Below, one piece after another: positions 3,424-5,051 of a stretch of DNA of 20,759 nucleotides. The notes under the pieces are model-generated. The model saw only the letters and a list, made by a program, of their open reading frames with translations, was not told the DNA's origin and did no database searches. Origin of the DNA: a virus; the IMG/VR virus record IMGVR_UViG_3300027852_000195, positions 1 to 20,759 of that record, one strand, 5' to 3'. The position numbers and the translations under genes are program-made. How positions within the stretch are numbered: position 1 is the stretch's first letter; every line of letters begins with the position of its first letter.

Positions 3424-3667
3424 AATTAAATACAAAGTTTATGTTAAAGATGAGAGTGTTGCAGAGTCAATTTATAAGGATTTTGTAACTTTGGTGATGG
3501 TGTTGTTTTGCGTTTATATCAGTCAAGATAGCAAGTTCTGGACATTTGTTGCAGGCATTATGTTTATAACATTCATGTTTGCGAAAATAAGCGCAATAAT
3601 GAATAAGGCTAGCGGTTTTAAAAGTAAGCAAGACCTGCAAAATTGGGTGGATAGTTTAGATGAGTGA
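3416..3667 (+). CDS. Small two-span membrane protein (83 aa)
   Basis: The GTG start at 3416 lies within the last 8 nt of the preceding gene; no ATG upstream is in frame. Residues about 21-36 (DFVTLVMVLFCVYISQ) and 42-61 (FWTFVAGIMFITFMFAKISA) are hydrophobic, so two membrane spans with both ends on the cytoplasmic side are likely. The C-terminus (KSKQDLQNWVDSLDE) is a charged helix. No family recognised. Ends in an 8-nt overlap with dut. Confidence 0.6.
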   Translation: MSEIKYKVYVKDESVAESIYKDFVTLVMVLFCVYISQDSKFWTFVAGIMFITFMFAKISAIMNKASGFKSKQDLQNWVDSLDE

Positions 3668-4088
3668 GGCAATGAAAATCAGGCTATTGTCTGACACTGC
3701 AACAGTACCAAGCAGGGCCACAAAGGGTAGTGCTGGTTACGATCTTAGCTGTGACAAAGGTTTTATATTGCAACCCAACGAACGACGGTTAATCGGCACT
3801 GGTTTGGCTATCACTCTGCCTGTTGGATCATGGGGAGAGGTGATGTCGAGATCAGGGCTGGCGTCAAAGTACGGCATTGACGTGAAGGCCGGGACGATAG
3901 ACCAAGATTACATCGGGGAGCTGATGGTGCTACTGGTTAACAACGGCAATAGACCTCTGCGGTGTGAAGCTGGTGACAGGATTGCACAGCTAGTCGTTCA
4001 AAAATACATGAAGCCAAACATCATGGTAGTACCGTCGCTGGACAAAACAGACCGAGGCGATGGTGGTTTTGGGCATAGTGGAAGATAA
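3660..4088 (+). CDS. dut: dUTPase (dUTP diphosphatase)
   Basis: 142 residues, the trimeric dUTPase length. All five motifs are present in order: AGYDL (25-29), SRSGLA (63-68), AGTIDQDYIGE (77-87) with the catalytic Asp at 81, GDRIAQLVV (105-113), and the glycine-rich flexible tail DRGDGGFGHSGR (131-142). The enzyme hydrolyses dUTP to dUMP and pyrophosphate, which limits uracil in phage DNA and supplies dTMP precursor. The tail reads RGDGGFGHSG in place of the usual RGSGGFGSTG, a mild change that keeps the Phe and glycines. The stop codon TAA lies inside an ATAACGCC element of the attC type, so dut abuts the first cassette-like site. Confidence 0.95.
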   Translation: MSEAMKIRLLSDTATVPSRATKGSAGYDLSCDKGFILQPNERRLIGTGLAITLPVGSWGEVMSRSGLASKYGIDVKAGTIDQDYIGELMVLLVNNGNRPLRCEAGDRIAQLVVQKYMKPNIMVVPSLDKTDRGDGGFGHSGR

Positions 4089-4115
4089 CGCCAAGTTAAA
4101 CCGCCTTGTTATACG
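4083..4115 (+). repeat. Collapsed attC-like site (A)
   Basis: The dut stop codon sits in GATAACGCC (4084-4092), followed by AAGTTAAACCGC and then CTTGTTATAC (4106-4115). ATAAC (4085-4089) and GTTAT (4108-4112) are inverted repeats. The 5' part equals the 5' arm of the sites at 4342 and 4741 (ATAACGCC plus a TTAAA/TAACC box) and the 3' part equals their 3' end (CTTGTTAT). The middle is missing: about 33 bp instead of 55-80. I read it as an attC that has lost its centre or a fusion of two half sites. Confidence 0.45.
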
Positions 4116-4134
4116 CCGATACGGAGCGATAAAA

Positions 4135-4347
4135 GTGCATACATTCAAAATAGATTTAAGGTCGCTAAAGATGGAAACTCGTCAGGTAAGGGATGGCAAT
4201 GCGATGCACCTTGAGGGGCGAACCAATATTATAAACCGTGACGAATCTATCGAAGAGGGGGAATGGCAGAGAACAATCACCATACCAAACTACGGCGACT
4301 GCTTTGACAAGAAGCCTACGCTTTGGAAGAGAATTTTTGGCGCATAA
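4135..4347 (+). CDS. Hypothetical cassette-type protein (70 aa)
   Basis: The frame opens as far back as ATG 4060, but that start would overlap dut by 29 nt and cover site A. GTG 4135 is preceded by CGGAG (4122-4126) at 8-nt spacing, so I prefer it; GTG 4078 and ATG 4171 are alternatives. The 70-residue protein starts with strands (HTFKIDLRSLKMETRQVRD), has a Glu-rich turn (DESIEEGEW) followed by QRTITIPNYGD, and ends PTLWKRIFGA, a short amphipathic helix. No family recognised. The stop TAA lies inside the next attC-like site (GCATAACGCC), as is typical of integron cassette genes. Confidence 0.6.
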   Translation: MHTFKIDLRSLKMETRQVRDGNAMHLEGRTNIINRDESIEEGEWQRTITIPNYGDCFDKKPTLWKRIFGA

Positions 4348-4403
4348 CGCCTTAGTTAAACAGGCCGGTGCTTTTCCGGCTCTTTTTGAATGACTTGTTA
4401 TAA
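4342..4403 (+). repeat. attC-like recombination site (B)
   Basis: GCATAAC (4342-4348, containing the stop codon) and GTTATAA (4397-4403) form the outer R''/R' pair. The inner arms are TTAGTTAAACAGGCCGG and CCGGCTCTTTTTGAATGA, which pair through GCCGG/CCGGC and the AAA/TTT region with a few mismatches and one unpaired base on the 3' arm. The 62-bp length, the unpaired spacer GCC next to the outer box and the extrahelical base are attC hallmarks. The central loop is TGCTTTT. Confidence 0.7.
4364..4387 (+). terminator. Possible Rho-independent terminator inside attC-like site B
   Basis: GCCGG (4364-4368), a 7-nt loop, CCGGC (4376-4380), then TCTTTTT (4381-4387). The stem is only 5 bp plus a G-T wobble, but the T-run is good, so at least partial termination after the 4135 gene is plausible. 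The same bases form the inner stem of the attC-like site. Confidence 0.5.
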
Positions 4404-4428
4404 CGATTTTTAACCGAGGATATACAAA

Positions 4429-4740
4429 ATGATTGAGACACTTTTAGCACTAATAGCAGTAGTAGTATTATCAATATGGGGCGCAAACCAATGCTGGTCA
4501 TTATTTAGTGATTTAGTTTGCCCGATGTTCGCCTTACTTGGATTTATTGGTTTGCTAGTCTACGCTGCTATGGCGTTTAGCTATTTAGGGGCAGAATACA
4601 AGGCCAACATAATAAACGCCGAATACGGAACAAACTATACGCAAGAAGAAGTTTTTTATGCCAGCTCGGTGATTGAAGTGGTTCGTGAGCTTGACAGGAA
4701 GCGCCTTGAAGTGAATGGCGATTTAATAACTGGCAGGTAG
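4429..4740 (+). CDS. Membrane protein of a mobile accessory family (103 aa)
   Basis: ATG 4429 follows CCGAGGA at 6-7 nt, and the protein is 103 residues. Residues 3-19 and about 28-53 (PMFALLGFIGLLVYAAMAFSY in its centre) are hydrophobic and predict two membrane spans. The cytoplasmic tail YGTNYTQEEVFYASSVIEVV then ELDRKRLEVNGDL is a motif I recall from small proteins scattered over plasmids, phages and integron-like loci, always without known function. Lies between attC-like sites B and C, so it is a whole cassette gene; TAG 4738-4740 ends 1-2 nt before the next site. Confidence 0.7.
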   Translation: MIETLLALIAVVVLSIWGANQCWSLFSDLVCPMFALLGFIGLLVYAAMAFSYLGAEYKANIINAEYGTNYTQEEVFYASSVIEVVRELDRKRLEVNGDLITGR

Positions 4741-4822
4741 TTATAACGCCATAGCTAACCAGTGAGGAACGAAATGATCAAAGCGAATGAAGAGACGGGC
4801 CAAGTTGAACGACTTGTTATGT
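4741..4822 (+). repeat. attC-like recombination site (C), long loop
   Basis: The 5' arm is TTATAACGCCATAGCTAACCAG (4741-4762 region) and the 3' arm GGCCAAGTTGAACGACTTGTTATG (4798-4821 region). Hand pairing gives GCTAACCAG with the complement of CAAGTTGAAC, leaving one unpaired base, and outer ATAAC with GTTAT. The arms share the same boxes as site B (TAACGCC, GACTTGTTAT). The intervening 35 nt form a long loop that contains the start region of the next gene. Weaker than B and F because the inner arms hold several mismatches and wobbles. Confidence 0.5.
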
Positions 4823-5004
4823 GGCTTAAAGAACAAGGAAAAATCCAAATTTTAACCATGATAGGCTTCTTACCCTTGGTCGTATTCTTAGACTTAGGAT
4901 TAGATATAATGATTATCAGGGATTTTGGCTGGATTAGAGGAGTAGGATTTATAGCCTCGGTTGTTTTTTATGCCGAGTTTTGCAAGAAATACCGCGACAC
5001 ATAA
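4774..5004 (+). CDS. Small membrane protein, cassette-type (76 aa)
   Basis: ATG 4774 is preceded by GTGAGG at 6-nt spacing, which decides the start; GTG 4762 and ATG 4819 are in-frame alternatives. ATG 4819 would lie in GTTATG of site C and would keep the whole gene inside one cassette. After a polar N-terminus (IKANEETGQVERLVMWLKEQ) come two hydrophobic segments, ILTMIGFLPLVVFLDLGLD and IRGVGFIASVVFYAEF, joined by a charged turn, so two membrane spans are likely. The C-terminus is CKKYRDT. The stop TAA (5002-5004) lies in the ACATAAC box of site D. No family recognised. Confidence 0.6.
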   Translation: MIKANEETGQVERLVMWLKEQGKIQILTMIGFLPLVVFLDLGLDIMIIRDFGWIRGVGFIASVVFYAEFCKKYRDT

Positions 5005-5051
5005 CAGAGAGATCGACGGCGCACCGCGTCCGCTGTATCGAGGTGTTATGC
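4999..5051 (+). repeat. attC-like recombination site (D), second family
   Basis: ACATAAC (4999-5005, holding the stop codon) and GTTATGC (5045-5051) are the outer boxes. The inner arms AGAGATCGACGG and CCGCTGTATCGAGG pair through GAT/ATC and CGG/CCG around an unpaired base. The sequence differs from sites A-C and F but is nearly the same as the site at 7673: both contain TAACAGAGAGATCG, CGTCCGCTG and ATCGAGGTGTTAT and differ mainly in the loop. Confidence 0.6.

Follow-up and report, generated by a model that had tools for sequence, protein, structure and literature searches.

The window analysed here, which is the entire 20,759-base virus record, contains two integrase-less integron-type cassette arrays (CALINs) in which each attC site runs opposite to the gene of its cassette. 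Its source is a P22-like tailed phage, in whose record we found genes for a P22-type coat protein, NinG, a DUF4055 (portal-like) protein and the large terminase. Reversed gene-to-attC polarity is present in most of the phage arrays that we found. It is apparently undescribed before, as no report of it in phage arrays was found in the open-access literature.

Two cassette arrays and their attC sites

Are the repeats between the small genes of this phage attC sites? The earlier note had described imperfect palindromes that start with ATAAC, in or right at a stop codon, end with GTTAT and alternate with three small genes. This is confirmed: three plus-strand ORFs (4135-4347, 4429-4740 and 4774-5004) are interspersed with such palindromes, and the TAA of ATAAC ends the first and third of them. 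We scored attC sites with two models. The first, a PWM and pairing model, was trained on 80 integrons retrieved via their integrase, with attC learned from the strand that the arrays must occupy; at a score of at least 18, its hits in these integrase-linked loci number 325 on the array strand against 3 on the other. The second is a covariance model (CM) derived from 47 bona fide attC sites, in which the pairs covary strongly and for which E values refer to a 130-kb search. Four window sites score 20-37 with the first model, whereas 100 dinucleotide-shuffled versions of the window reach 8.4 at most. Those at 4342-4403 (PWM 37.1; CM 23.4 bits, E 0.0065) and 4741-4822 (PWM 35.9; CM 23.2 bits, E 0.0074) are the strongest, the latter having a long variable stem that contains the start of the next ORF. 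The site at 4083-4114 (PWM 20.3; CM 19.6 bits, E 0.055) is a 32-nt remnant from which the inner arm and variable stem are missing, of the short kind that the PWM scan admits with a shorter length limit, and the fourth site lies in the second array at 7407-7465 (PWM 24.6; CM 17.5 bits, E 0.19). By the CM alone, the last two are weak. A covariance search, which the earlier note had suggested, matches at three of its palindromes, and its reading of them as attC is upheld by both models for 4083-4114, 4342-4403 and 4741-4822 but not for the palindrome at 4999-5051. The two or more clustered attC sites that make a CALIN are present at 4342-4403 and 4741-4822, with 4083-4114 and 7407-7465 in addition. 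Folding of the bottom strand, likewise suggested before, gave a divided result: the plus strand pairs R and L for 4342-4403 and 7407-7465 but not for 4741-4822 and 4083-4114. With a truncated attC at 4083-4114 and a poor fold of 4741-4822, array 1 may be inactive in parts; in all, two of the four window sites, weak or truncated, may be so.

Array 1 begins at the dUTPase gene dut (3660-4088, plus strand; Pfam PF00692, E 5e-34), the stop codon of which (TAA, 4086-4088) forms the left border, with the cut AA/C falling between 4088 and 4089. Three cassettes follow. The first (4089-4347) carries a gene for 70 aa (4135-4347, plus strand) whose stop TAA is inside the next R' box; the second (4348-4746) carries a gene for 103 aa with a hydrophobic N-terminal half (4429-4740, plus strand); and the third (4747-5004) carries a gene for a hydrophobic protein of 76 aa (4774-5004, plus strand) whose stop TAA falls in the ATAAC of a 50-nt hairpin (4999-5051). 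None of these three genes has a Pfam or PHROG family match. The start of the third ORF, with a good Shine-Dalgarno-like GAGGAA, falls within the variable stem of the attC that belongs to it (4741-4822), and a further in-frame ATG is found at the GTTATG end of that site. The array had been placed between dut and ssb, which is correct on the dut side only, since a gene without assigned function (5085-5627) intervenes before ssb (5627-6043). After ssb lie two neighbouring endonuclease-like genes, at 6107-6529, the DNA of which matches HNH/homing endonuclease genes in many phages, and at 6472-6948, which is HNH_3; this pair is missing from the related contig L006 between dut and the lysis gene. 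When the array was used as a query against phage and plasmid DNA records, near and distant, the sole match was the HNH-type gene at 6107.

Array 2 (7407-7721), which is absent from the earlier note, consists of one cassette (7413-7678) with a gene for 66 aa (7478-7678, plus strand) whose stop TAA is in the TTAAC of a second copy of the 50-nt hairpin. Directly upstream of it, about 190 noncoding bases (window 7222-7409; 9618-9811 in the related contig L003) are 89% identical between the two phages, a conservation that exceeds that of many surrounding genes. A structured RNA at this position is not supported, the fold being no better than shuffles (z -0.98). An Rfam scan gave no match.

All four scored attC sites have minus polarity (the best plus-strand score is 0.9 by PWM), all cassette genes of the window have plus orientation, and the cassettes are not filled by any ORF of the minus strand. 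With attC and genes in opposite directions, this is not a normal cassette array. The proposal of a CALIN-like array in a phage early region is supported by its attC sites, by the swapping of cassettes at the R' cut and by the lack of an integron integrase (IntI), with the corrections that the polarity is reversed and that one of the listed palindromes is a copy of another repeat. That no integrase is present was borne out by a TIGR02249 search of the window record, which may be a fragment; intI, the mark of a complete integron, was not found in it. Likewise, none of the 46 virus records searched with the integron integrase profile gave a match above the cut-off, so that if the sites are used, the integrase must act in trans. 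We note that the virus record of L127 (L215, L218) contains tyrosine recombinases weakly related to this profile (best E 2e-13, below the cut-off), one of which adjoins its cassette array.

The 50-nt hairpin is attC-like and has four copies, two in the window (4999-5051 and 7674-7721) and two in L006 (447-499 and 2319-2368), the copy at 4999-5051 being 91.8% identical to L006 447-499 and 83% identical to window 7674-7721. It is not a typical attC, with 4999-5051 scoring 0.9 by PWM and 10.7/9.1 bits by CM. Both window copies are at the right end of their array, where they overlap the stop codon of its final cassette gene; with attC sites of minus polarity, this right end is where attI would lie, and we regard the hairpin at 4999-5051 as a candidate entry site. 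Its own polarity is ambiguous: an additional base in one of the arms points to minus, the spacers to plus. A pattern search of IMG/VR for the hairpin gave no match.

Cassette turnover between related phages

The earlier note had proposed comparing related phages for gain or loss of cassettes at GTT, and had held that gene content never changing at this boundary would speak against an integron-like array. This objection does not hold: cassettes do turn over between relatives, and the window ceases to match L006, and likewise L003, at the R' cut (G/TT; AA/C on the plus strand). The dUTPase of L006 is 94% identical, and the 84% DNA identity of the dut region ends at window 4091; from the same base, at the dut stop codon, L006 continues with a wholly different set of cassettes separated by attC, and it has another array upstream. 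At the position of array 1, L003 is without attC and has a 67-aa gene directly after the same ATAAC, with homology returning at window 5057. At array 2 the window and L003 are 89% identical up to ATAA/C, then carry unrelated cassettes, and match again from window 7745. Among other phages, an edge lies at most 8 nt from an R' cut in 21 of 28 phage-phage homology blocks that are situated in arrays or close to them, where 2.1 blocks are expected at random and the maximum in 2000 random placements is 7. A 287-bp cassette stretch is 99% identical between two viral contigs. In L003 6819-7226, a protein resembling MazG on visual inspection occupies the position of dut (window 3660-4088), with the 3'-end DNA of dut and the last residues ARGDGGFGH retained, as if a swap had taken place around a short shared end.

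Gene-to-attC polarity in viral and chromosomal arrays

How general is the reversed polarity? The viral set comprises contigs found by two attC patterns together with relatives of the window, giving 46 contigs with such arrays; they are IMG/VR contigs, mostly fragments of uncultured viruses, and the search patterns are biased toward attC of marine Gammaproteobacteria. One pattern also hit many contigs through a common 44-nt match, which either reaches 16.7 or gets no score, and single-site contigs were therefore left out. In the 46 viral contigs, 86 cassette genes run opposite to their attC and 7 run in the same direction, with gene direction ambiguous in 66 of 159 cassettes. In the 80 IntI-linked chromosomal loci the relation is inverted: 202 genes run in the same direction and 14 opposite, with 35 ambiguous and 15 cassettes without an ORF. 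The Fisher value for this difference (2e-52) is only indicative, because cassettes within one array are not independent. Counted by the majority in each array, 36 viral contigs are opposite, 3 same and 7 tied, and 40 chromosomal loci are same, 1 opposite and 2 tied. The reversal is also seen in contigs found only with the chromosomal-derived pattern (63 opposite, 6 same) and in terminase-bearing viral contigs (46 opposite, 5 same), and an independent control of 30 chromosomal loci found by the covariance model, rather than via the integrase, shows the normal direction (42 same, 1 opposite). Reversed cassettes make up about 6% in bacterial integrons.

As regards the genes themselves, 47 of 83 opposite cassettes use the TAA of the R' box as their stop codon. 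In the homologous pairs L183/L186 and L181/L202, mismatches fall preferentially at third positions of codons in the opposite-strand ORF, the remaining pairs having too few changes or no clear codon-position preference. Among named phages, the annotated genes of H101 oppose all four of its attC sites (scores 40-54) and the published annotation of MW202573 likewise opposes attC; Tetrasphaera phage TJE1 has canonical polarity, and P12002L has a single weak attC hit. The clearest exception is the viral, terminase-bearing contig L177, where five attC sites (5887-9169) have normal bacterial polarity and four of four cassettes run in the same direction. Cassette genes of L006 and of another relative, L004, with any match belong to HTH_3, DUF7448 and several PHROG families. 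Comparison of 268 phage cassette ORFs with the 80 chromosomal loci gave no match, as would be expected if phages had a pool of their own, although the sample is small.

We considered the orientation of the flanking genes as a cause of the reversal. These genes are antisense to attC in 27 viral contigs including the window, in the same direction in 9 and mixed in 9. Flank orientation proved insufficient, since several contigs are reversed with attC running along the flanking genes (L126, L152, L162, L183, L191 and L194), and for the same reason co-transcription alone does not explain the reversal.

A proposed mechanism, its alternatives and known systems

What might move these cassettes? We propose, and consider reasonably probable, that they are adapted to phages and that a host integrase, acting in trans, moves them, the recombinogenic strand of attC being the sense strand. 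An integron integrase from the infected host would recombine the folded attC bottom strand, which in these arrays is the sense strand of the phage genes, and hence the non-template strand in transcription; it would also be the lagging-strand template if replication runs with transcription. Being non-template and possibly lagging-strand template, the active strand would fold and recombine readily, and we infer that such strand exposure, in transcription and perhaps replication, would account for the reversed polarity. Phages would thereby have a pool of inverse cassettes to themselves, with expression driven by phage promoters and exchange of one cassette at a time. That a distinct pool of this kind is maintained and widely shared among tailed phages, many of which infect marine bacteria, with cassettes swapped singly by host integrases, is a generalization to which we give slightly better than an even chance. 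In an inverted Vibrio cholerae integron, where the bottom strands were moved to the lagging-strand template, excision rose sharply (PMC11023631).

Other explanations must be weighed against this one. Canonical cassettes, with genes running along their attC, would have stop codons overlapping ATAAC as seen here, yet the four minus-strand sites, the plus-strand genes and the lack of minus-strand ORFs filling the cassettes refute this reading for the scored sites, and we give it almost no credence. The reversal might instead be a by-product of selection, in which an array is seeded by an attC antisense to an operon, ordinary host cassettes enter, and the reversed minority, being co-transcribed with the phage operon, is kept; there would then be neither a separate phage pool nor an effect of strand exposure. 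The predominance of antisense flanking genes and the existence of reversed cassettes at about 6% in bacterial integrons are in keeping with this explanation. It is hard to reconcile with the contigs that keep the reversal with attC along the flanking genes, with the lack of matches between phage and chromosomal cassettes, and with the expectation that random seeding should make operon-direction arrays of ordinary cassettes common; we judge it unlikely.

Phage mosaicism at short repeats is common, and the sites could be relics or look-alikes, that is, short repeats that lie between small phage genes and serve as breakpoints of homologous or single-strand-annealing recombination, without any integron integrase. 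Such an origin would suit the records, none of which has an integron integrase above the cut-off and several sites of which are degenerate, and L004 has a putative annealing protein, named ERF-like from its sequence, near its array. However, the sites fit in detail the attC consensus and the pairing that true integrons show, the breaks are confined to the R' cut and not scattered over the hairpin, and the attC sites of H101 (PH101) recombine with IntI1, with the bottom strand preferred, according to Qi et al. (2023; PMC9892861). We consider an origin as relics quite improbable.

The accessory genes of phages have a rapid turnover, and it has long been asked how individual genes are exchanged at fixed positions; a site-specific cassette system powered by host integrases would be a concrete and testable answer. 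If general, the reversed polarity would provide a simple sequence rule that parts phage from bacterial cassettes and by which databases could be sorted, and it would point to strand exposure, in transcription or replication, as governing recombination. Chromosomal integrons are reported, in titles cited in PMC12444791, as stores of anti-phage genes; phage arrays with the same kind of site would be their counterpart in that exchange.

The earlier note had described such arrays as known mostly from chromosomes and plasmids. Phage arrays are not a novelty, however: CALINs in phages were reported by Qi et al. (PMC9892861) for Pseudoalteromonas phage H101/PH101, MW202573, TJE1 and P12002L and, like those of the window, are attC clusters with small genes and no integrase. 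That paper calls the H101 and TJE1 arrays typical and, in its available text, makes no mention of reversed polarity; by our model, H101 and MW202573 share the opposition of genes and attC seen in the window, and TJE1, unlike the window, is canonical. The sedentary chromosomal integrons of marine Gammaproteobacteria (L015-L094) resemble the window in attC consensus, pairing and extrahelical base, and in having one small gene per cassette with a stop codon overlapping the R box; unlike the window, they have intI and attI, and their genes run along attC (202:14). Bacterial integrons are known to contain lone reversed cassettes; an example is symE in Xanthomonas, where the gene, as in the window, opposes the Pc/attC direction (PMC12444791). 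Finally, the atypical integrons of Treponema also show an anomaly of orientation, but in their case intI is the element whose direction is changed with respect to the array (PMC3607928), whereas in the window the gene is turned within the cassette. Reversal is thus an isolated exception in bacterial integrons and a rule of whole arrays in the window and in most phage arrays.
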